Origin: Entophlyctis helioformis
Taxonomy: Eukaryota; Chytridiomycota; Chytridiomycetes; Chytridiales; Chytriomycetaceae
DNA: 64,000 nucleotides
NCBI GenBank assembly: GCA_025526915.1
Contig: JAHLKH010000024.1
Location: 124,001 to 188,000 of the forward strand
Reading direction: 5' to 3'
Shown: positions 35,801-55,045 of the stretch, piece after piece
Layout: each line of letters begins with the position of its first letter
Position numbering within the stretch: position 1 is the first letter of the stretch
Program-made: the position numbers and the translations under genes
Notes under the pieces: model-generated
What the model was told of the DNA's origin: nothing
Databases searched by the model: none
What the model saw: only the letters and a program-made list of their open reading frames with translations

Positions 35801-37115
35801 GGTGCGGGACGGGCTGCCTTCGTTGGTGTCTGAGTTGGCGCGAAGAGCAGGCCACGAGTCAAGGCCCATGTGGCTGGCAGCCGGCCATTCGCGAGGAAGC
35901 GAGAGCGGGACAGAGCGGAAGTTGGCGTGAGCATCCAAGTCCCGATCTGGATCTGAGCAAACGGAGAAATCGCAATTGGGCGAGCAAAACGCGTGATTGG
36001 CCGCATGCCGGCGGCGCAGTGCACACAAGGACAGTGGCACAAGGACGTCGCGATGAGCCCAGCAAAGCAAGCCAAAAGCGCGCTCCGCTCCGTCCTTGTG
36101 CGGCATGTGGAGCGGCAAAACAGTTGTGGAGGGCAGTGATGTGGCGATGGGTCTGAGAGGGAGTGTGAGAGAGAGAGAGGGCAGCCTACCTGTGCAGATC
36201 GACGAGGCCGGGAGTGACAAAGCGGCCAGCGGCATCGATGGTGGTGAGGTCATTGAGCTCCGAGGGCTTGAGATCAGCGAGGCCGTTGGAGAGCCGGAGG
36301 TTCTTGCCGATGCGGGCAATGAGGCCGTTGCGGAGCAGAATGTCAGTGTCCTCGTACACGGAGCCGTCGCCGTCCCAAAGCGTTGCGTGGGTGAGCAGGA
36401 CGGGGGCAGGAGCATCGGTGCCAGCCAGGCCGACGCGGGGGTTGCGGGCACGGGTGTGCGGAGGAGCATGACGGTGGCGGTGGCGGTGGTGGCGGTCAGC
36501 GTCGACGCTGGCATCAGCATTGGCATTGGCATTGGCACCGGCAGACGAGTCGAACGAGGCATTAAAGGTGCCGAACGGGGTCTCGAAGAGCGGGTTCTTG
36601 CGGCCGTGGGCGGAGCTGCAGCCGGAGACGTCGCAGCGAGAGCCAGCAGAGTCAGTGTCGGCAGGGAAGGAGTTGATGGCCGCACAGGCGCGGAGGCCTT
36701 GGCGATAAGCCTGAGCGGAAATGCCGGACACGACGCGGCCGGCTGCACCGCTGGAGGGCGGGCCTGGGAACGACGACGACGGCGACGGCGCGAACAGCGG
36801 CGAGGCGATGGGCGACAAGAGGACGAGGACGGAGGCGAGCGCAACGAGGACCGAGGCGCCGAGGAAGCGGAGGACGCGGCGACGGGCGTGGGCGTGGGCA
36901 GGAGCAGCAGGGCGGTCGAAGCGGTCGCCATCGGCCAATGGCATCCAGCCGGAGCCGCGACCATGCAAGGCGGCCGGGTCATCGGCGTAGCTGGGCGGCG
37001 GCACAGGGGCGGCACCGGCCGCATGCTTGACGTCGGCCGCGTAGGGGCGGGCAGGCTGCGAGGGATGCTGCGAGGGATACATGTGGCCGGAGCCGTAGAC
37101 GATTGGATTGGGCAT
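32858..37115 (-). CDS. Membrane-anchored amidohydrolase-superfamily enzyme
   Basis: The start at 37115 (MPNPIVYGSGHMYPSQ) leads to a cytosolic Pro-rich region and one membrane helix, VLRFLGASVLVALASVLVLL, a type II anchor. Then come VLLTHATLWDGDGSVYEDTD and FVTPGLVDLH, spliced to SHMGLDSWPALRA, giving the metal-binding HxH. Further metal-site candidates are LLNVHCYE, VAAFHHALEAWEV and VVFKSDHPVLNAQHL (His, His, Asp). The C-terminal half continues GQGDRLGRLQPGYDADVVLW, the second composite beta-sandwich strand set, and VGRPANLVVYDNVPGTLKA, ending TVQD. About nine introns split it; most borders are visible as frame-conserving GT-AG pairs. Substrate unknown; such enzymes hydrolyse C-N bonds of cyclic amides or peptides. 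At roughly 950 residues it is longer than most relatives. Confidence 0.75.
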
Positions 37116-37331
37116 GGGCAGTGTCGACACAAAGGTCAAGAATTCCAGGCGGCTTTGGGCCCGATATTCATACAATTACCAAGGATTTTGGAGTTAAATT
37201 CGACCAGAGAGGCGACGGATGCAAGCCAGCACATCACACGATGGAAGGTTCGAGTCAGCAACGAGCATGCGACGACAGGCGGGCGAGGCACATCCAACAA
37301 GGGTCTCACCTTCTATTGAAGTGACCCGTTA
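37116..37331. other. Intergenic, amidohydrolase promoter side
   Basis: The sequence between the amidohydrolase ATG and the element terminus shows no coding frame I can support. It presumably contains the amidohydrolase promoter. Confidence 0.3.
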
Positions 37332-37343
37332 GGTCGATCGGGA
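37332..37343 (-). repeat. Element 3' terminal motif, copy A
   Basis: GGTCGATCGGGA on the plus strand (TCCCGATCGACC in element orientation). It is identical to 54087-54098 and to the reverse complement of 26785-26796. Unlike those copies, no paired CACGTG boxes precede it here. Confidence 0.6.
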
Positions 37344-37514
37344 GGTTCCCCGATTCAAAGTGTTGTTGTTGGCAGACATGGCAGCATGATCTGATCCCAT
37401 GAGGCCACATGCGACTTGAAGGGAAGCAGATCGGGTGACGGAGGCTGCTGGACGACAGGCTGATCAGGCGGTGTCGCGAGTAGCATGATGTGATGTTGTG
37501 CACGCCACTGGATG
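37344..37514 (-). ncRNA. Candidate guide (omega) RNA region 3' of the Fanzor ORF
   Basis: In characterised Fanzor and TnpB loci the guide RNA scaffold lies at the 3' end of the nuclease gene and its guide reads out past the element end. Here 171 bp separate the stop codon from the shared terminal motif, the expected place and size. I cannot fold it reliably by eye, so this is a positional inference only. Confidence 0.25.
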
Positions 37515-38910
37515 TCATGATGAGTTGCCTGATGTCTGCAAGGTACTCTGCGTGGCTGGATTGCTGTCAGGTGGCGTGTGCGTCAAGTAGAGCGGCCGGT
37601 GTCCATAGAGCAGATGCCACAGTGCGACCATCCCGATGTTGGTGGCTCCAAGCACATCGCGGTGGTAGACAGTCTGCATGGTATGCACTCGTAGCGTCGC
37701 AGGTTGGTGCGGTTCTTGTATGGGATCCGCTGCTTGCACTGCGGGCACATCTGGCTGGTCAGGTTCTCGTTGCAGCGGTAGATCTGTGTGTGTGTGTGCA
37801 TGATCGTGTGTCAGTTGGTGCACAGATGGATGGATGGATGGACAGCGTGGCATCAGGCGCACATAGGCATATCCAGACGACCGCAGATGCCTGATGAGAA
37901 ACTTCTCAAACACAGCGTGCCGGCCACCTTGGCCTGTAAAGTCGATGCCAAATGCCCACACAACGGGAATGTCCTTCTCTGTTGGCTTGTCACAGCGGCC
38001 TTGAGATGCACGAGATGCGCGCTTGCCAGTGGTCGATCCTGCCAGCTTCATGATGCCCTCAAGAGCCTGTCCGCGATCAGACGTGCTGTTGCTGCGCTTG
38101 GTGAACCGCTTGGCCTTGACCTTCTGTGGAATGTCATGCCATGCCATGCCATCCAGTGCAATCAGCATGGCGATCAAGCAGCATGGCGGCTGTGTCAATG
38201 GGCATCCAGAAACAGAGAAACCGTACCCGTGCATTCAGGAATGGCGTGCAGTACGCATGGCAGCGCAGATCCCAAAAGGCTCTCTCGCCAGGCTTGACGT
38301 TTGGATCGGCATGCTTTGTTGTCTTGAATGCAATGGCCGCCTGGATGTCGGACGCCTTGGCATATCGATTGTTGAGCCTGGCACAAGAGGCAGGCACTGT
38401 GAGTTGATCTGGTCAAGAGTGCGCGTGGCAGAGTCATTGCATGCATACCACCGCTGAAGGCTGTGCTCGGCTCGTGCCATGCCAGAGGAGAGCACGTAGT
38501 TGGACTCGAGGGTATAGGTGAAGGTTGCCAGATCGACCAGCATGCTGGACGCGCCATACATGTACCGCTCGCCCCAATCAATGCCGACAATACGCACAAA
38601 CCGGTAGCCCTTGTTGGTGAACAACTTGTTGGCTTTGACAATGTTGAGCAATCGCTGAGAGGCGTAGAAGCTGAGCTTGCCCTGTCATGCCATGACATGA
38701 GTGAGGAATGTGCAATGCATGTGCACCAAAGTGCGAGGTTAGCATGCAAGTGGCTTACAGGATTGGTCGCTTTTGGCTTGGTGGCTGATGGGTTGGCAGG
38801 ATCGGCAGCTGTGGATGGCATGTCAGTCGGTGTGGACAACAAGTGTGCGTCTGGATTGGCACAGCAACTCACATTCGCCATCCAAGTGATCATGCCCATC
38901 ATGCCCATCG

Positions 38911-38943
<33 letters not shown>

Positions 38944-41900
38944 GGCATGCCATCAGCAAGGCTGGGCTGCTCGCCTAAAGATGCCATGTTGGAGCATGCA
39001 GATCAAGGCGGCAGTCAGAACCAATGTGTGCACCAAAGCATTCAAGCACGCCACATACTGCGAGGCGACTCTGGACGGTCTGTGCGATAGTCCAGCGCCA
39101 ATTGAAAGATGCTGTATCCGTCCGTCCGGAAGCTGCCCACCGCGGTCGGTTTGCTTGGAATTGCAGGAGGAAGACCATCGATCACGGCGTCTATAAACTC
39201 CTGGCGCTCCTTGCCAACCAGACCCTCGTGCTCAGCCAGTTGCATCGCATCAGCAATGACTGCGTCATTTGCTTGGACCTGCTCAAACACCTCCTTGTCG
39301 GCCTCGTCTGGCGTCTGATAGCGGCCTTTCTTGGGGCGGAGGCCGGGAAGGAGTATGTTGAGGATACAGAGCTCCTTGCTATTGCTGAACGCCTTCTTGA
39401 TCGTCCTGTTGGATGATGCGAGGCCCAAGCTGGCTTTTTGGTAGTCTTGGATAAAAGTGGAGTGTCAGCATCATATCATGTAGACATGGCATAAACAAGT
39501 GCGACCTACTGAGTACAGCAAGGAGCTGCAGTCGCAAGTATGCCAAAGCAGCACTTTGCTCGCCACGGATGCGATCATCACTACTCCCCATCACCGCCCA
39601 AAAGAGCGTTGTCTCGGTGATGAGGATGAATGGGTCGCGGCTGGCTGCTTGCGGGCACAGCTTGTTTGTCGTGCCAGCAAGCTTGGACAGCTCGTAAAAG
39701 ATCACGATCTCTGACCGAGACACATCAGGCACCAGCGTCTTGAGCTCGTGCAGCTCTTGCGGGACTGTATCAATACCGCTGTCCTCAGTGGCTGAGGAAG
39801 AGCTGGATGCCGCGTCCTTGGTGGTGGTGGCCTTCCTGCCCCGTCGCTTCTTGGGCCTGCCGCCCTTGTTGGCTGACGAAGAGGTGGACCGGCCCCGCTT
39901 GAGACTTGAGGTGGGAGGAGCAGTGTCCAAAGTGGCCAGCGGTGTGGCGTCCTCGATCGCTGGTGGTGTAGCGTCCTTGGCAGCCTTGGCAGCAGCAGCC
40001 TTGGCGGCCTTGGCAGCCTTGGCGGTCTTGAAAAGTGCCGCAATCCACACTCTCACGTCCTCAATGGATGCACTGGGCATCAGCTTGAGGGCCGCAGTGA
40101 CGGCCAGCTCAGACTGGCTAGAGATGTAGTGCCGCGCGAGCATGCCACACACATCCCTGGCCAGATTGCCGTAAATGTCATGCCTTGCATCCGCGCAAAG
40201 GCTGCCATCAAGCCTGTAGGGCAAGACAGCCTCCATAGTGCCCGCGTGCACAGCGTCTGCCGTCTGCACACTTGTGTGCATCAAGGCCGACAGCTCTGCA
40301 TCTGCCTGCACCACGGCTGACAGGATCGCGTCGGCCTGGATTGTCACCGTCTGCTGCGTCGCGTCCATCATGTCGGCATCCATCATGGCTGCTCGCATCG
40401 TGTCCATCTGTGCCATGTCCATCATGGCTGCTTGCCGCGCGTCTTTCTGGAACGCGTCGCTGTGCTCTGTGGCCGCCTGCTGCATTGCATCAATCAGTAG
40501 CATGTCCTTCAGCATTGTGCACGTCTGCATCATGTCCATCCGTACCGTGTCATCCTGCAGCTTGGCTGCGTTGGTTTGCAGCACCCTCCGCGTCCAGGTG
40601 CGATGGATCGTCATTTGCATGACTGTTACGATCCAGGAGTGGATGGCATGCTTGGTCGCTTGCGGCTGCACCATCATGCTGTCTGCCAGGACATAGCCAA
40701 GATAGCGCAGCAGCATGGCCACAGCACCGCCTCCACCTGATATACTGCTGGTGAGGGCCATAAGCAGCTCATTTGCTGATGGAACTGCTGCTGCTGGTGG
40801 TGGTGGTGGTGGCGGTTGGACGGCTGAAGATGAAGCGCCGGTGCTGCTGGCTGCTGTCGGCTGATTGTGCACATCATGCTCGTCCTGGATGCATGGGTCG
40901 TCAGGCTGCACAGGCAGCTCGTGCTCGTCGTGCTCGTTCTGCTCGTCCTGCTCGTCGTGCTCGTCCTGCTCGTCCTGATCATCGAGGTCGCCATGCATGT
41001 TGGGTTGCTTGGCAATCTTGGCAGTATCAAAGGCGCAGATCTTGAGAGCCGTGTCACTCTCGAGAGTCACCAAGCTGCCATAGCGAGGGATGTTTGTGTC
41101 GCTGCTGTGCGGGCCGGTGCCGTACATGTGCCAAACAATGATGCCCTGCTTGTGAATGCATCCACCTGACAAGAGCGTCGCGCTCTCGTCCTCGTCAAAG
41201 TCCTCGGGGTTGACATAGTAATACTGCGTCAGCTTGCCTTGGCTTGCCTCCAGGACACAGTACTCCAGAGGCAGAGGCGCGTCTGCATCCAGCTTGACCA
41301 GATCCGCGACCATGGCGCCGATCAAGGCAAGGGCAGCACGCCACAAGCCGGCCGTGAAATAGTAGACTGTGAGGGTGGTGTCGTGGCTGATTGAACTGGG
41401 TGTCTGCTCGGCGAGTGGTGTCTTGGTTTGGGGCCCAAAAAACTTGGTGTTTGCGAGATCGCATGACTGCATCTTCTGCATACCACACAAGTCAGCATAC
41501 ACAAAGCCAAGCAAACAGAGCAGCATGGCGATCAAACCCCATACCGCCATTTTGACAATCTGCTCAGGGCGGCTGTGTGCATTGCCTTTAGGTCTTGGCT
41601 GTCCTTTGGGATGGGTGGCCGCAGGCAAGTGTCATGACTGGCATCGCAATCATGCGGCCGAGCTTTGCAAGCTTCTGACAAGTTGCCACTCGACTGCCAG
41701 CAACCCATCTGTGGCATGACACACATGTCAGCAAGCACATTCAAGGCACATGACATGCCATATGTCGCGTACGCCTTCTTCTTGCCAACAGTTCCCGCCT
41801 TGCGAGCATGCAGGCCTGACTTCTTCTTGTTCTCTCTGATGATCTCCTGTAGTGTGGCCTTCTCTTTTTTCTTGGCACGCTCCTTTGTGTGTGCAGCCCG

Positions 41901-44640
41901 CTTGGCTGCCGTGAATTGGAATGGCGCCTGTGACGGTTGGATGCAGCATCAGGCGGCCATTCCAAGTGCACCAAACACAGCCATAATCGCCAATAGTGCA
42001 CCAAACTCACCGTCGTCTCAGTGTCGGCAAGATCGCCAACGGGAAAGGTCTTGGAGCATGCCAGTGCTGCGAAGATGTTGTTGGACAACCGTGGTGGCTT
42101 GGGCGGCGGTGGAGGAGGGCCAACCTGTGGAGTGGGATGGTGAGCAATCGCGCCAAATCATTCCATGCACATGCAGTCAGTGGAAGTCGAGACGCACTGC
42201 ACTTTGCTCGATGATGGACTGCAGCAGGGCGACAGCCTTTTGGAGCTGATTGATGAGTGTCGGCGGTTTGGCGTTTTCTGGATGTGGACCTATGGGGTGC
42301 TCCAGGAAATACAGCCAGGCTGACGCCTTGTCGTGGATAGCAGCGACAGTGGATTGCGGTGCAACTCGCGTGGTCATCCTGCCGTGGTACTTGACTTTCT
42401 GCGTCTCTGTGTCCAGTACTATGCATTCAACACAAATGGATCTGTGAGTGGATGCTGTTGAATCATTTCAATGCAATCAACACCTACTGGGAGTGGATGT
42501 ATGCCGGTGGGATGCGCATGGCGGATTGGCAATCTTGTCGAGCTGCGTCTGCATTCTCATTGCTGCGTTCTGTCCAGAAGCAATGGATCAAGTCAGCCGC
42601 ATTCAAAATCAGCAAATGCACGTGGTGTGATAGCAACAGCATGCATTCAAGCCATGCAAACATACCAATGCGCGATAGATTGGCTCATCTGCTGGGAGGA
42701 GCTCAAAAATGCCATCTGCTCCAAGAAACTGCTCGCTGGCAATCTGCAGCAGCTGGGCACTTGCTGCTTTGCAGATGGCCGCCAGGATGTCGCGACGCGT
42801 GACAGCATCGTAGCTGCTCGCAAGGCGGTTGACTGTGCACCTGATGATGGTGTCGAGTGCCACATGGCAACCCTTCACCTCACTGAAGGCAGCATCCAAC
42901 CGCCTGCTGCCAACAGTGCTGCTGACAAGCTGCTCGACCCTGCCACGTGTCAGGTGGACAAGCTGGACGCCGTTCTCAGCCTGCTGCTGCTGCTGCGCAG
43001 TATGGCTCAAACAACATCCATCCATCAAGCACCTGCACAATAATGAGATCGCAGCATCAGAAACAGAAACTCAGTGTCAGTTTTGCCAGAAACGCCACAG
43101 ATTCCATGCATTCATACTTCATTCCAACAGATGGAGTCGTGTTGACATCCATGTGGTTGGTGTGGTCGGCTTGAGGCTCAGATCTGTGCAAGGCATTCAA
43201 ACGCGTCAATGCCATCATGTCCATGACATCCTTCAAGAATAAACATACCTCGCGACGATCGGCGCTGTGATTGCACCAGCAGAGGCCCCAACCTCATTCC
43301 GGTTGACAAAGACTTCAAATGCGTTCTTGAATGCCTGGACAAGGCTCTCATCACCATTCTTGACCAGCTCCTCGATGTACGCGTCCCTGACGCCGTCCAT
43401 GAACGCCTTGGCCTCATAGGAGTCTCGAGGATTGCGCAGAGGTCAGCCGCCTTGATGTTGAGCTCTTTGACCTTGGCATCAAACCGCGCATTGACAAACT
43501 TGACCGCGGCGGCGATTCCTGGCAGGGAATGCAAGCAGAATCGCGCATGTAGACAAAGAATGGCATGTGAGTGATGGCAGATACTACAAAACAGGCGCGG
43601 CAACTCACCGTGGCCAGGGCGGCCAAAATAATCTGTCCTGGACAGTGCAGCGACCAGCTGGCATGCTCCAGCAAAGTTGTGCACGCCCAAGACAGATGCC
43701 ATGGTGGCAAGCCCACCATGGTTGTAGGATCGCATCTGCACAAGCTGCCCATGCTCCAAGTGCGTCAAAATGACCGCACAGTGCCCAGCACAATGTGCCA
43801 CCAGATCAGAGTCATTGGCAATGACAATGATCGGCTGGTCACTGTCACAGAATACAGACTGTGAGCCATCAACTACAGCAGAAGAATGCAAGGCGATCTA
43901 ACCTGGACTCGCGAACACGGCAGGCGATGCAACAGTCTGCCTCATAATCACACAGCAGACTGTGCACGCCTCCTTGGATCCAGCCAGCTCTGAGAGAGCC
44001 TCGTAGATCGCCTTCTTATCGGCGATTGTAAGACAAAAGAAGCGGTGGAGGGCGTGCTTCTCTGTCCTTAATGGCCAACAGCAGAAATGGTCAGTAAGGC
44101 AACCAGACAGTACACAGCGGCGATCTTACTTTGAAAGTGAACCAGAGTGGCGACCTTCCTGACGCTGGAAGGTGTGCCGCAGAACCTTGGCTGCCGCATG
44201 CAGCATGTTGTTGGTGCGGCTGTTATGGACCAGCTTGAGGCCCAGGTCGCCAAGCTGGCCATCCACATGGAAGCGGATGGTGTGGCCGCTGCCAAGCGAC
44301 GCCATGAACTGCTCAAAGGCCGGCTGGACAATGGCTTTCCAGCCGGCCTTGGAGCCTGGCTGGCTGATGGCGGCTGTTGCGACTAATGCTGGGTGAAAGA
44401 TGCTCAAGAAGTCCACATGCAGCATCCCGCTGATGAACTGGGTGGTTGCGGCTGTTGTTGTTGCGGCTGTTGTTGTTGCAGCTGTTGCAGTCTGCTGTTG
44501 CGGCGGCGGCTGTTGCAGAGGCGGCTGTTGTGGCAGCATGCTGTGGAGCACACGCTGCACAGCATGGCCAAAGTCTTGCCGGTGTGGTCGCAGACGGCAC
44601 GGCGTAGCTTGAAGGCTCTCAGCAGGCCTACAAAAGTCAT
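37515..44640 (-). CDS. Candidate fusion: XPG/FEN1-like nuclease + Fanzor (TnpB-like) nuclease
   Basis: N-terminal module (44640 to about 43250): MTFVGLLRAFKLRR, LHVDFLSIFHPAL, IRFHVDG, DYEADCCIA, PIIVIANDSDLVAH, LVAALSRTDYFGRPGHG. These give the seven acidic residues of FEN1/XPG nucleases. A helical middle region follows (NGVQLVHLTRGRVEQLVSST; KVKYHGRMTTRVAP; AAKRAAHTKERAKKKEKATL). One long exon (about 41440-39510) carries acidic DEQDEHDEQDEQ runs and a basic GGRPKKRRGRK segment. The Fanzor core: GKLSFYASQRLLNI, RIVGIDWGERYMYG (RuvC-I, about 38565-38595), KVKAKRFTKRS, VVWAFGIDFTGQGG (RuvC-II position), ENLTSQMCPQC and ECIPC (zinc ribbon), YHRDVLGATNIGM (RuvC-III). Phase-consistent GT-AG introns chain most exons, but at least three one-base frame breaks (near 43950, 43430 and 37676) remain. 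It may instead be two adjacent genes. Confidence 0.6.
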
Positions 44641-44885
44641 GCTGGTGCTGCTGGTGCGTGGGGTGTCTGTATCTGTGTTTACGAGAAAAGAATCGGAGCG
44701 TCTGGCGGAGTTCAAGTTTCATTGCCGACACAGACAGAGAGCGAGTGGATAGAGAGCGAGCATCCAGGCACTCGCCGCCCACTGCCTGACAACCATAAGG
44801 GAGCAGCGAGCAGCGAGCACAGCCAACAGCCAGGCGTTCAAGATGCGGTTCTGTGTTGCTGGCACAGTCATTGATGAGATGCCAC

Positions 44886-45635
44886 TCAGTGCGCAGCTTG
44901 ATATGCATCGTGCAGCATCACTCTGCGTGTCATGAGCCGCATTGCAGCGAGCCTCTCTCCGAGTGTCGTCTTCTCAGTCAATGTCCCCATTGCATCCAAC
45001 AATCGTCCTGATATGCATCTGCATTGTGACCCAGTGCGATGCAGTTGGTGTTGCCTGACTGGCCAGCTGGTCCATGGACAGGTTGGTCGTTGGCGCACTG
45101 CCTGCATCGCCCCTCTGCTCTGGATCGTCCTTGTCAACACGCACAGTGCATGCAAGACTTGGATCGTCAGGATCATCGCCATCATCATCGTTGTGGTTGT
45201 TGAATGAATGGAGAGTGCTTGGTCTGTCTGGCCACTCCAGTTGCTGCTCAGTGGATCGCATCCAAGATGCCATCGCACCAAGTGCAATGTGGCCAGACAC
45301 GCCTGCCAACACTCGCGTCCTCCTCACCAATCTCGTCTGGATCAGTGTAGTCGAGTGTGACGCTCATCGAGTGTGCTGCCACTGCCGAGTTTGGCGTCCA
45401 AGTCGGCATGCCAATCCAGCTGTCCAGCAAGCAGTTCCTGCAGCCAACTCCAAGGATCGGTCCATTGAGCACGTCTCAGTGGCTGCTCATCGTTGCTGCT
45501 GCATCCCATGTCGCAGTCGGAAAGCACCAGGCAGCTCGGTCCTGCGATGCCAATGCTCTCGATGTCCTCTTGAACAACAGCCAGCTCGCCCTGTTCACGG
45601 CCGTCTTGCCAACGTCCCTTGCTGTTTGGACCCAT
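44886..45635 (-). pseudogene. Coding-like region of unknown function, frame-broken
   Basis: Three overlapping minus-strand frames read like protein: CLVLSDCDMGCSSNDEQPLR with WSWLQELLAGQLDWHADLDA (about 45360-45560), MSVTLDYTDPDEIGEEDASV (45306-45365), GVSGHIALGAMASWMRSTEQ with an Asp-rich stretch (44974-45315), and KTTLGERLAAMRLMTRRVML (44886-45000). They shift frame by one base at the joins, with only 25-nt candidate introns. This suggests a decayed gene, unresolved splicing or assembly indels. It lies directly upstream of the XPG/Fanzor gene, so it may be that element's 5' part. No domain recognised. Confidence 0.35.
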
Positions 45636-46108
45636 CAGACATGCACGCAGTCAGTGCCAAGACCACACAGACACGGCCGTCAGACTGCTGTGCTGTCGTC
45701 ATCAAGTGGCAATGCACATGCCTGGACAGACAGCGAGTCAACGCACCTGCTTGCCTGTCTGCAGCCTGCCTTCTGTCCGCCCGCCTTGTTGGGCACGCCT
45801 CTCAGACAGCCACGACCACGCAGCTCTGCTGCATGGCCTGCTGGACTGCCTGCTGCATGCCACCTTGAGCAGTGAGCCTCGCCGTCTCCCCTGAAGGACT
45901 CGTCCAGCAAGCGAGCGCTGTCCCATATCCGTGCTGTCGCCTGCGTTGCCGTCGTCGTCGTTTGGCTCGTTGTTGCTTGTGTGCAGTTGGGCGGCAAGTG
46001 CAACAGCGTCTGGATCTGGCATGGCGCGTTGCTGCTGTGCTCGCATCGCGCAGTGTCTGCACCGAGCAAGGATCGACCAATCACAGCGATTCCACCAGGG
46101 GTAATGGT
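45636..46108. promoter_or_regulatory. SNF2 upstream region
   Basis: This 473-bp stretch before the SNF2 start codon shows no frame I would call coding on either strand. It probably includes the SNF2 promoter. Confidence 0.3.
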
Positions 46109-49100
46109 ATGAGAACCGGGCCCGGCTTTGGCGCGTTTTCGTGCATGAACAACAACGTCGGCAACGTCGGCAACGGCGGCAACGTCGGCAGCAGCAGCAG
46201 CGGAGGTGGAGGAGCGTTAGCAGGGCAGACGCAGCAGCCGACACAGATGCAGCAGCCGACACAGATGCAGCAGCAACAGCAGCAACAGCAGATTCGACAG
46301 GCACAGCAGGCACAGCAGGCACAACAGGCACAGGCACAACAGGCACAACAGCAGCATGCCGCGCACATGGCGGCCATGGCCGGGCCGGCCGTCACGCTCG
46401 CCACGGGTGCGTTGCCTGCGCTGTCTGCGCTGCCTGCGCTGCCTGCGTGGAGTGCCTGCCGGTGCGCACACTCACACACTCACACACACACGCACACACT
46501 CTCACACGCAACAGGCCTCGTGCTGCCGCCCGGCGTGCAGTCCAACTACAGCCCCGACGAGATCAACGCCATTATTGCCGTGAGTGTCTGGCGTGCGGGC
46601 GGGCTGGCGTGCCTGCTGGCTGTCCAGCGCCGTGCTGCTCACACACACACTCTCTCAACACACACACACTCATACACTAACACACACTCACACACACACC
46701 ACAGACGGTGCAGCAGCTCAAGGCCAACAACGAGGCCCACCTGCCCGAGTTTGCCAGGCTCGTAGCCATCCTGCGCTACTACCAGTCGCAGATCAAGGCG
46801 GTCGCTGCCCCGTCTGCCCCGTCTGCCCCGTCTGCCCCGTCTGCCCCGTCTGCCCCATCGGCCCCGTCGGCCCCGGCCCTTGCTCCGTCGGCCCAGACCC
46901 CGTCGGCTGCTGCAGTTGCTGCTGCCACGTCCGCGTCGTCCCTGTCAACGACACCGCCGGCTTCCGCTTCGGACCCGCTGCAGCAGGCGTCCTCGTTCAC
47001 GCCCGACCAGCTGGCCTCGCTCCGCTACCAGATCCATGTCTTCAAGCTGCTCTCGTCCAACAAGCCGGTCCCGGACCAGCTGGTCAAGGCCATCTTTGAC
47101 CAGCCGCACAAGCCGCTGGCACCTGCCTCGGCTGCCTCGGCTGCAACCCCACAGCCGCAGATCGCGCTGGCTCCTGCGCAAGGCATCGTGCAGGCCGCCG
47201 TCAAGCAGGAGCAGCTCGCGCAGATCCAGCAGCAACAGCAGCAACAGCAGCAGGCCGCCCTCGTATCCGCTGAGCCGATGCCCTTTGCGTCGCCCTATGC
47301 CGCCTACTCGCGGCGCTACACCCTCTCCGAGCTCGAGCATCGGCTCATCGTGCCCAGCGCCATGCCAACGCCGCTCGATCCCGTCGCCCTCAAGCTCGAG
47401 CGCGAACGACTCATTCGTGCCCGCATCCATGCCCGCATCCAGGAGCTCGAGTCGGTCCCGAGCAACCTGGCCAACGACGCCATCTCCTCGGTCGTCATGC
47501 CGTCGGGCTCCGTGCTCAACCCGCCGTCCGACGCTGTCCGTGCCAAGCTGCATGCCGTCATCGAGCTCAAGTCGCTGCGTCTCTTTGAAAAGCAGCGCGA
47601 GTTGCGCTCGCAGATTGCACACGCCCTGTCGCATGCAACCACTCTGGCAACGGCCATCGACCGCAGCTCCTTCCGCAGGATGAAGAAGCAGTCCCTGCGC
47701 GAGGCCCGCCAGACCGAGCTCCAGGAGCGTGCCCAGCGCAAGGAGCGCGAGAACCGCGAGCGCCAAAAACACGTCGACTATGTCCAGTCCATCCTCGCCC
47801 ACAGCCGCGACTTTCTCGCCTTCCACAAGCAGCAGCAGGCCCGTGCAAACAAGCTCGGCGCCAGCATCATCCGCCACCACGCCCTGGCTGCCAAGGAGGA
47901 AGAGCGTCGCTTGCAGCAAATGTCGCAGGAGCGTCTCAATGCCCTCAAGGCCAACGACGAAGAGGCCTACCTCAAGCTCATCGACAAGACCAAGGACACG
48001 CGCATCACGCATCTGCTCGAGCAAACAAACTCGTTCCTCAACACCCTCATGAATGCCGTCGAGAAGCAAAAGACGTCCGTCGGCAGCGACTTTGAGATTC
48101 CGCTCCTGGACCAGTCGGCAGCCATTGTCGAAGACGATGACCCAGACGGAACGCGCGACTACTTTGCCACCGCGCACAGGATCAAGGAGGAAGTCACGGT
48201 GCAGCCGTCCATTCTCATTGGCGGCACCCTCAAGGACTACCAGCTCAAGGGCCTGCAGTGGATGGTCTCGCTCTACAACAACAGACTCAATGGCATCCTC
48301 GCCGACGAGATGGGTCTTGGAAAGACGATCCAGACGCTGTCGCTCATCACCTACCTGATCGAGAAGAAGAAGCAGCCGGGCCCGTTCCTCGTGCTGGTGC
48401 CGCTGTCCACCATGACCAACTGGGTGCTCGAGTTTGAGAGATGGGCGCCTGCGGTCGTCAAGATTGTCTACAAGGGATCGCCCAATGAGCGCAAGCAGCT
48501 GGCAGCCACGGTCAAGGCGGGCGGCTTCAACGTGCTGCTGACCACGTTCGAGTACGTCATCAACCCCAAAGACCGTCCGGTGCTCAGCAAGGTCAAGTGG
48601 GTCCACATGATCATTGACGAGGGCCACCGCATGAAGAATGCCGAGTCGCGTCTCTCAACGACGCTTGTGCAGTACTACTCTGCGCGCTACCGCCTGATTC
48701 TGACAGGCACGCCGCTCCAGGTGCGTGCTCTCCCCTTGCCGCTTTGAGACGCGTGATCCTGCACTCTCTGTGTGCATTCTCCGTGGCTAAACGCGGCCTT
48801 GGTTGCATCCCCCTTGAACAGAACAACCTGCCGGAACTGTGGGCTCTGCTCAACTTTATCCTGCCCAAGATTTTCAACTCGGTCAAGTCGTTTGACGAGT
48901 GGTTCAACTCGCCCTTCCAAGGCTCGAGTGGCCAGGAGAAAATCGAGCTCAACGAAGAAGAGCAGCTGCTCATCATTCGCCGTCTCCACAAGGTTCTCCG
49001 TCCCTTCCTGCTTCGCCGTCTCAAGAAGGACGTCGAGTCTGAGCTGCCCGACAAGGTCGAGACGGTCGTCAAGTGTCCCATGTCTGCCCTCCAGCACGTG

Positions 49101-54086: not shown

Positions 54087-55045
54087 GGTCGATCGGGAGG
54101 GTGAAATCGTCAATGTTGGAAATCAACGAGTGAAAGTCAGATCACGTGAGGAGGCACGTGACGTGATGGTCGACAGGGAGGCCTTGAGATGCACGAGATG
54201 CGCGCTTGCCAGTGGTCGATCCTGCCAGATTCATGATGCCCTCAAGAGCGTTTCCGCGAATAGACGTGCTGTTGCTGCGCATGGTGAACCGCTTGTCCTT
54301 GACCTTCTGTGGAATGCCATGCCATGCCATGCCATCCAGTGCAATCAGCAGGCGATCAAGCAGCATGGCGGCCATGTCAATGAGCATCCAGAAACAGAGA
54401 AAGCGTACCCGTGCATTCAGGAATGGCGAGCAGTACGCATGGCAGCGCAGATCCCAAAAGGCTCTCTCGCCTGCTGTGGCGTTTGGATCGGCATGCTTTG
54501 CTGTCTTGAATGCAATGGCCGCCTGGATGTCGGCTGCCTTGGCATATCGATTATTGAGCCTGGCACAAGAGGCAGCACTGTGAGTTGATCTGGTCAAGCG
54601 TGCACGTGGCAGAGTCATTGCATGCATACCACCGCTGAAGGCTGTGCTCGGCTCGTGCCATGCCAGAGGAGAGCACGTAGTTGGACTCCATCGTGTATGT
54701 CTCCTCCTTGACATTGACTAGCATGCTGGATGCGCCAAACAGGTACCGCTCGCCCCAGTCAAAGCTGACAACACGAACAGTCTCATAGCCTTGGTTAGTG
54801 AACAGATTGTTGGCATCAGCAACATTGGGCAGCCACTGGGATGCATTAAAGTTGCGCTGGGCCTGTCATGCCATGGCATGAGTGAGGAATGTGCAATGCA
54901 TGTGCACCAATGCGCGAGGTTGGCATGCAAGTGGCTTACAGGATTGGGTGTGTATGGCTTGGTGCGAAAGTCCAAAGTCAGCAGAGAGATACTGTATCCA
55001 TTGGTCTTGATGCTGCCTTGTCTGATCACTTCCGTTGAGGCCACC
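54087..55045 (-). mobile_element. Fanzor element copy B, internally deleted
   Basis: From about 55045 down to 54180 the minus strand follows the Fanzor gene of copy A. It encodes TNGYSISLLTLDFRTKP, an intron, FDWGERYLFGASSMLVN (RuvC-I Asp kept), EHSLQRW, the same 60-bp intron, LNNRYAKAADIQAAIAFKTA, FWDLRCHAYCSPFLNAR, an intron, and KVKDKRFTMRSNS, stopping at RASQG. There the sequence jumps to the element's 3' terminus: the RuvC-II, zinc-ribbon and RuvC-III parts are gone. Copy A's poly-Asp exon and upstream exons are also absent. The terminal motif GGTCGATCGGGA is at 54087-54098. Copy B therefore cannot encode an active nuclease but could still carry element ends. Confidence 0.8.
54143..54160. 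repeat. Paired CACGTG boxes of copy B terminus
   Basis: CACGTG at 54143-54148 and 54155-54160, starts 12 bp apart, 45 bp from the terminal motif. The same pairing occurs at 11.34 kb and 26.74 kb. CACGTG is a palindromic bHLH (E-box) site. Confidence 0.6.

Follow-up and report, generated by a model that had tools for sequence, protein, structure and literature searches.

A high-copy transposable element of Entophlyctis helioformis that probably encodes an XPG-like and a Fanzor1-like nuclease in a single gene

What kind of locus carries the signatures of both a flap endonuclease and a guided nuclease on one strand, and are the two made as one protein? The question is raised by a stretch of 64,000 nucleotides from the chytrid Entophlyctis helioformis (assembly GCA_025526915.1, contig JAHLKH010000024.1, positions 124,001 to 188,000; this whole stretch is “the window” below), in which a sequence-only reading had pointed out XPG/FEN1-like and Fanzor nuclease modules encoded head-to-tail, possibly as one polypeptide. 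Positions 37158-46122 of the window, on the minus strand, are one copy of a transposable element of 8,965 bp. Approximately 20 exons (E1-E18 plus E14b and E14c, with GT-AG introns) join into one frame of approximately 1,950 amino acids, in which an XPG/FEN1-EXO1-like nuclease is followed by a linker of approximately 1,000 amino acids and then by a Fanzor1-like nuclease (Table 1). On balance, the reading favored here is that the locus is one decayed member of an abundant DNA transposon family with terminal inverted repeats (TIRs) and a single XPG-linker-Fanzor1-like gene, working in the manner proposed below.

The borders of the element were set by comparing the window copy with 20 related copies (21 copies examined) from the 29.6-Mb, 482-contig genome of this species, which is also the source of all genome-wide counts. 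Both ends could be recognized by pattern in 13 of the 21. The flanking 8-bp target site duplication (TSD) is identical at all eight positions in five of these two-ended copies and at seven of eight in two more; in C5 and C219, a near-copy of it appears by eye to be displaced by 2 or 3 bases. When ends from different copies were paired as a control, agreement at seven or more of the eight positions was found in 1 of 156 pairings. TIRs with a TSD of fixed length (7/8 or 8/8 in seven of the 13), as expected of a cut-and-paste DNA transposon, are present. The inner 18 bases of the 5' TIR, with up to two mismatches allowed, have 95 matches in the genome and none when reversed, and 64 of the 95 are followed by XPG exon 1 at a distance of no more than 5 kb. 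Where the ends are recognized, both modules sit inside one TIR-bounded element, with XPG on its 5' side and Fanzor on its 3' side.

Two further features of the ends were seen. Tandem units of approximately 28 bp, resembling TGGTGGAATCGCTGTGATTGGTCGATC, lie by the 5' TIR in copies L011, L013, and L015-L019, apparently in varying number. Just past the 3' end, the sequence begins in the same or a very similar way within L009/L015 (on contigs C36 and C122), and likewise within L011/L021/L022/L026 (C140, C50, C162, C2); the common 3' flank within each group probably reflects duplicated segments or nested insertions rather than independent insertions.

The family is a large one. The Fanzor exon has at least 150 matches in the genome, XPG exon 1 at least 147, and XPG exon 3 at least 150; a genome search with the PF07282 profile scored the best 150 of 205 candidates, all of those listed lying above the cut-off, and merging this list with that of the Fanzor exon gives at least 200 Fanzor loci. 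For pairing, 145 of the 150 XPG exon-3 matches were used, after dropping three second pieces of split matches and two pieces that were short or in the opposite orientation (C298:3-92 and C364:11576-11827). Among these matches listed, 109 of 145 have a same-strand Fanzor within 16 kb downstream, against one with a Fanzor upstream and seven with one on the opposite strand; with a limit of 7 kb the corresponding numbers are 89, 0, and 1. The Fanzor-exon list alone pairs 97 of the 145 downstream within 16 kb, 72 of them at 4.3-5.2 kb. Together with the TIRs and the TSD, this genome-wide pairing in one direction bears out the placement of both modules on one strand of a single mobile element, and the recurrence of an XPG module beside the Fanzor core in other members of the family in this genome (109/145 matches listed) is what a genuine association had been expected to give.

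The reading frame can be followed across the middle of the gene in the window copy itself: between the end of E6 and E14c, eleven exon pieces join into 1089 codons that contain no stop, compared with 25 and 42 stops in the other two frames. The expectation that exon phases here would join into one frame thus held, as did the proposed start (MTFVGLLRAF, at 44640) and four junctions in phase 0, SA|VGPPPP, TT|APFQF, MP|IVKMA, and MA|KMQSC; the phase-2 junction SQ|SIC is uncertain, the present model taking another acceptor (exon from 42418). A similar series of introns is found in most of 13 copies compared by spliced alignment, in which 16 of 39 segments are without a frameshift and none of the 39 has a stop, although the aligner penalizes stops above frameshifts or introns, so that the absence of stops is partly a product of the program, and a few alignments of distant copies include implausibly long introns. 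All of the motifs first noticed are present on the minus strand of the window, both for XPG (LHVDFLSIF, FHVDG, YEADCC, ANDSDL, SRTDYFG) and for Fanzor (GIDWGERYMYG, CPQC, CIPC, HRDVLGATNI). The claim that they form complete signatures needs correcting for this copy: frameshifts in E1 (poly-Q), E2 (before YEAD), E4, and E18 (zinc ribbon to HRD) leave the motifs spread over several frames. The same stretches are in frame elsewhere (for example E1-E4 in L009 and L010, E18 in L009), so the signatures are real and the window copy is decayed.

Between subfamilies, nonsynonymous divergence (dN) in linker segment M1 is 0.34 against a synonymous divergence (dS) of 0.86-0.95, and in the Fanzor half 0.20-0.27 against 0.40-0.52. 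For the XPG half, values come from within one group only (L010, dN 0.10 against dS 0.28-0.29). In most comparisons dN is below dS, which speaks for function being kept. By block, E1-E14 diverge fast and E15-E18 slowly.

Divergence is also distributed unevenly between coding and non-coding sequence. Between the window copy and L017, L018, and L020, exons diverge by 0.28-0.39; the figure is 0.11-0.29 for the introns of E1-E10, where indels are few, and 0.06-0.15 for the 5' non-coding stretch. With L016 there is little difference (exons 0.24-0.40, introns 0.09-0.36). Divergence at four-fold sites of the linker (0.45-0.50) is above that of introns (0.28-0.31). A special process keeping introns more conserved than exons was considered and set aside, since the pooled values mix blocks and L016 shows little difference. 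The ends of the element (about 38950-37158, and the 5' 1.5 kb), introns included, are far more alike between subfamilies than are the XPG and linker exons, as if these end blocks had been exchanged or converted between subfamilies.

Are the two modules what their motifs suggest? Sixteen Fanzor modules were spliced and seven aligned: D244, E430, D467, and both CxxC pairs (C437, C440, C457, C460) are invariant in all seven. With four of its exons spliced, L009 matches PF07282, the TnpB/Cas12f zinc ribbon (E 1.1e-9, 38.8 bits against a cut-off of 26.3). E430 stands six residues ahead of the zinc finger, and by hand the spacing fits ExxxxxxCxxCx(12,18)CxxCx(4,8)D, the pattern of Fanzors with an alternative glutamate (Yoon et al., PMC10711439). 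T141-D142-G143 is likewise invariant (7/7), with a putative placement in the WED domain, where TDG is a mark of Fanzor1 (PMC10711439). The C-terminal end of the module differs between copies. Searches of the PDB with a single Fanzor sequence and with the alignment listed no Fanzor chain, the presence there of the SpuFz1 chain being unchecked; the single sequence drew a LaTranC chain at a non-significant E of 1.4.

For the XPG-like module, splicing at 26 loci and alignment of 12 modules picked for diversity (identity to the first down to 36%) left exactly seven fully invariant acidic columns out of 358: D6, D56, E142, D144, D165, D167, and D225, in 12 of 12, with one further column mixing D and E. 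In order they read D, D, ExD, DxD, D, and the gaps between them are 50, 86, 2, 21, 2, and 58; in human FEN1 the acids are D34, D86, E158, E160, D179, D181, and D233, with gaps of 52, 72, 2, 19, 2, and 52, and in a fragment of this genome's own EXO1 the last five are separated by 2, 19, 2, and 51. The presence of all seven FEN1/XPG metal-binding acids, another early claim, therefore stands for the family alignment but not within one open frame of the window copy. The glycine directly after the last acid is invariant, as in the helix-two-turn-helix region of XPG/FEN1/EXO1 nucleases. Members of the XPG/FEN1 superfamily begin with Met and have Gly-Leu shortly after; here the N-termini vary among copies (MTFVGLL, MTVAGLL, MTVRGYL, MGVPDWL). 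The Pfam family XPG_I_2 is picked by 9 of the 12 modules (E up to 1, best 2.8e-4), the XPG half beside the L009 Fanzor search has a weak Pfam match (E 0.025), and hhalign places the module in register with the EXO1 exon (YEAD/YEAD, NDSDL/EDSDL, TDFF...GHG/CDYL...GIG). It differs from its presumed relatives in lying inside a transposon protein, in scoring below the curated Pfam cut-off where scores are given, and, in several copies, in a variable poly-Q/Ala stretch ahead of the first acid. On residue grounds, membership of the XPG/FEN1 superfamily is likely.

The 3' end of the element provides a fair candidate for a guide RNA scaffold. Identity to 13 distant copies, in 25-base bins, is 0.69-0.98 at 37150-37374 (the last 8 bases being TSD), declines to 0.36-0.59 across 37375-37524, and recovers in the RuvC/zinc-ribbon exon. 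Two short hairpins at the 5' end of the block are kept in nearly all of the 21 copies, with one compensatory change. Fanzor1 guide RNAs take in the TIR and TSD and run about 15 nucleotides beyond (PMC10711439). In L009 the reading frame extends to a stop inside the block, so protein and RNA may overlap there. Rfam gave no match over the window at the gathering threshold; one sub-threshold match, P10, lies outside the element and was taken as chance.

A number of results weigh against the favored reading. The RuvC-I motif is DWG (D244-W245-G246, 7/7), whereas in Fanzors it is near exclusively DPG (PMC10711439), and the module is for this reason called Fanzor1-like rather than Fanzor1. Pfam scores for XPG are 16.1 and 14.5 bits (the two proteins with scores) against a cut-off of 24.2, hence “XPG-like”; PDB searches with single XPG sequences and with the alignment matched no FEN1 chain, and hhalign gave the module a probability of 1.8% against EXO1 (E 0.028), with 9 of 338 shuffles as high. 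The TIR pattern is present within 5 kb upstream of 64 of 146 XPG exon-1 matches (147, less one split piece) and absent for the other 82, so that many copies must be truncated or have other ends; and 36 of the 145 XPG exon-3 matches listed have no Fanzor within 16 kb, although these may be truncated, near contig ends, or partnered outside the matches listed. Each of the 13 long copies checked has at least one frameshift, and so has the window copy. Proteins in nr (P0001-P0010) cover only pieces of 217-520 amino acids, and a full-length query found no fused protein in the protein collection, E. helioformis included. Between L019 and L020 the Fanzor half has dN 0.09 and dS 0.10, a ratio near 1 that speaks against strong constraint. 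Finally, the 3' block in the window sequence folds no better than shuffles do (z-score -0.11).

With no transposase recognized in so large a family, its means of movement is in question. A fixed 8-bp TSD flanking TIRs is a usual product of DDE transposases. Pfam searches of the exons, the linker pieces, and the open reading frames (ORFs) of the 5' region found no recognized transposase domain in the element, a diverged one being possible; domains of KDZ/Zisupton, hAT, MULE, and IS4-type transposases were absent from it, the negative for hAT being weak because the control genomes were also empty. The possibility of a gene in the 5' 1.5 kb or on the opposite strand was rejected: frames differ among seven copies, single-base indels occur, and Pfam had no match to the three ORFs of the 5' 1.5 kb. 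Five families (KDZ, hAT, MULE, DDE_Tnp_1, P-like) were searched for genome-wide. Only KDZ has matches, four in all, three of them with stops; MULE and DDE_Tnp_1 (PF01609) have none, and nor do hAT and P-like, for which the control genomes were likewise empty and the negatives say little. By position, no KDZ match is inside a TIR-marked element: on C334, the sole TIR match starts about 7.9 kb beyond the KDZ fragment, and C271 and C396 have no TIR match. Three possibilities for mobility remain: a transposase acting in trans, one hidden in the linker, or the XPG-Fanzor protein itself.

The first of these, a tentative but serious one, is that the element is non-autonomous and an unrelated host transposase, for instance of KDZ type, acts on the TIRs, the XPG-Fanzor protein being cargo that raises copy retention; this would be compatible with the favored reading. 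The 8-bp TSDs and the four KDZ matches in this genome agree with it, and among described Fanzor1 elements are some that lack a transposase yet bear TIRs of a known superfamily (PMC3627910). Also in its favor are the copies on C35, C436, and C23, where the 5' TIR lies approximately 300-400 bases from a TNB match and which by eye resemble internal-deletion derivatives. Against it, none of the KDZ matches is within a TIR-marked element and three of the four have stops, and the other four families have no match to offer (for hAT and P-like with the empty controls already noted).

Somewhat less probable is a DDE/D transposase concealed in the linker, to which the nucleases would be accessory; this too would be compatible with the favored reading, strand transfer then sitting elsewhere. 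It would account for the TIRs and fixed 8-bp TSD in an element with no transposase domain found elsewhere, and the linker is conserved in frame. Pfam matches in or beside the linker are nevertheless all sub-threshold, the best being Integrase_1 in E14 (E 0.022, 15.2 bits against 23), with nothing better than E 0.057 for two linker pieces covering 972 of about 1,089 residues, and a transposase recognizable there by Pfam was rejected on this ground. Much of the linker is, moreover, acidic, repetitive, or of low complexity.

Under the favored reading, of a transposon family with one XPG-linker-Fanzor1-like gene, the conserved 3' end of approximately 210 nucleotides, including the 3' TIR, would be processed to an omega RNA that takes its guide from the flank. 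The Fanzor part would cut the matching empty site or sister chromatid; for TnpB, repair from the element-bearing copy after a guided break at the empty site has been described (PMC10432273). The tethered XPG part could trim flaps or resect 5' ends at the Fanzor break, and repair would then copy the element back in or complete its insertion, strand transfer being left to an enzyme not recognized here. We infer that the gene is transcribed as one RNA in the cell, that both modules are active nucleases, that the guide RNA exists, and that these cooperate. As a further reading, mobility could be the work of the XPG-Fanzor protein itself, with guided cutting by the Fanzor half and 5'-flap or end processing by the XPG half in place of a classical transposase; this seems less probable than either alternative above. 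If true, a TIR element with 8-bp TSDs would be spreading without a DDE, tyrosine, serine, or HUH enzyme. The biological roles of Fanzors remain unknown (PMC10432273). The joining of a Fanzor to a nuclease of an end-processing type in one conserved frame, the two being together at 109 of the 145 places listed, suggests a function during or following DNA breakage, and such a role becomes testable through this association. Such a natural fusion, of guided cutter and flap/5'-end nuclease, would also serve ready-made as a model of repair-coupled insertion.

Might XPG and Fanzor instead be two neighboring genes, separately transcribed, with a single frame resulting from compact spacing and the linker belonging to one gene or both? 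This seems rather unlikely. The short proteins into which the nr annotation divides the region are in its favor, as is the contrast between fast (E1-E14) and slow (E15-E18) blocks. Opposed to it are the open 1089-codon frame across eleven exon pieces, the low dN relative to dS in linker segment M1 between subfamilies, and the introns, which in related copies, judged by position, continue across both modules and leave no promoter-sized gap. Two of the nr proteins also speak against it: P0007 spans XPG through E6, and P0005 begins at the end of E13 and extends into the Fanzor exons. That the N-terminal module is no XPG/FEN nuclease at all, its motifs being convergent or coincidental, is very improbable: the sub-threshold Pfam scores, the lack of a FEN match in NCBIfam (noise only) and the PDB, and the weak EXO1 comparison point that way, but seven invariant acids at near-FEN1/EXO1 spacing and the choice of XPG_I_2 by 9 of 12 modules do not.

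How does the element compare with known systems? With Fanzor1 in eukaryotic transposons it shares RuvC D-E-D, a glutamate placed six residues ahead of the zinc finger, TDG, a multi-copy state, and a 3' end that, together with the TIR, is a guide RNA candidate (PMC3627910, PMC10432273, PMC10711439, PMC11423790), and some described elements also have no transposase (PMC3627910); the element here differs in its DWG, N-terminal XPG-like nuclease, linker of approximately 1,000 amino acids, 8-bp TSDs, and GGCCCG TIRs. Spu-1 (SpuFz1, Spizellomyces punctatus; PMC10432273) likewise has a chytrid host, tens of copies, and inverted repeats with no transposase found between them, and its guide RNA comes from the 3' end, where the element here has a candidate; S. 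punctatus has 42 Fanzor loci against at least 200 in E. helioformis. ESvi-1B (PMC3627910), an IS4-type element with Fanzor1, shares TIRs and perfect 8-bp TSDs; its family carries an IS4-type transposase, whereas DDE_Tnp_1 is unmatched in this genome. The word “XPG” is absent from the text available of PMC10432273, and “xpg” and “flap” from that of PMC11423790. In the open-access literature searched, no paper containing both “Fanzor” and “XPG” and none on an XPG-Fanzor fusion was found, most subscription papers lying outside that search. PMC11071296 joins Fanzor and flap endonuclease, seemingly as two names for one protein; its excerpt leaves undecidable whether a fusion is meant. In the protein collection, at the sensitivity used, relatives of the two modules (6 and 4 proteins) are all from E. 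helioformis, and viral contigs searched with the Fanzor and XPG alignments gave none. The pairing of XPG and Fanzor in one protein was not found in the papers or databases searched, nor in other species, direct searches of other chytrid genomes lying outside this coverage.

Table 1. Positions of features of the element (window coordinates, except for the KDZ fragments, which are given by contig)
Feature	Position	Strand	Basis or remark
TSD, 8 bp, CAAAGCCG	46123..46130		5' side of element; 8/8 identical to 3' side
5' TIR GGCCCGGTTCTCATACCATTACC	46100..46122	-	comparison of copies
5' non-coding region	44641..46099	-	seven copies: no common frame, 1-nt indels
XPG/FEN1-like module, E1-E4	43249..44640	-	spliced models; E1 44640-44130, E2 44066-43903, E3 43841-43609, E4 43518-43249
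XPG acids, window copy	about 44413, 44263, 43943, 43937, 43813, 43807, 43633	-	alignment
Linker exons E5-E12	41545..43183	-	no known domain; E5 43183-43118, E6 43032-42666, E7 42569-42488, E8 42418-42198, E9 42124-42011, E10 41927-41773, E11 41708-41639, E12 41559-41545
Long exon E13	39510..41475	-	linker (acidic, Pro-rich stretches), then start of Fanzor N-terminal part
Basic AT-hook-like stretch, KRGR...GRPKKRRGRK, in E13	near 39905-39830	-	label by eye
Fanzor1-like module, E14, E14b, E14c, E15-E18	37515..39445	-	E14 39445-39059, E14b 38974-38873, E14c 38808-38759, E15 38681-38449, E16 38377-38227, E17 38123-37863, E18 37783 to about 37515
RuvC D	about 38579	-	
Shifted E	about 37768	-	
Zinc ribbon	from 37747	-	
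RuvC-III D	about 37658	-	
Conserved 3' block, candidate guide (omega) RNA scaffold	37158..37370	-	approximately 210 nt; two hairpins at 5' end
3' TIR, ending ...GGTAATTGTATGAATATCGGGCC	37158..37180	-	19/23 bases as in 5' TIR (count by eye)
TSD, 8 bp, CAAAGCCG	37150..37157		3' side of element
KDZ transposase fragments	C334:6404-7253, C271:9823-10062, C396:222-449		

Elsewhere in the window, a second, truncated Fanzor remnant lies at 54180-54964 on the minus strand, with 88.9% DNA identity to window positions 37997-38783; no further XPG match was found in the rest of the window, this remnant included. A reading frame at 36186-37175, also on the minus strand, has a weak amidohydrolase match (E 0.006, below the cut-off), and the element, being directly upstream of it, may sit in the promoter of that gene.

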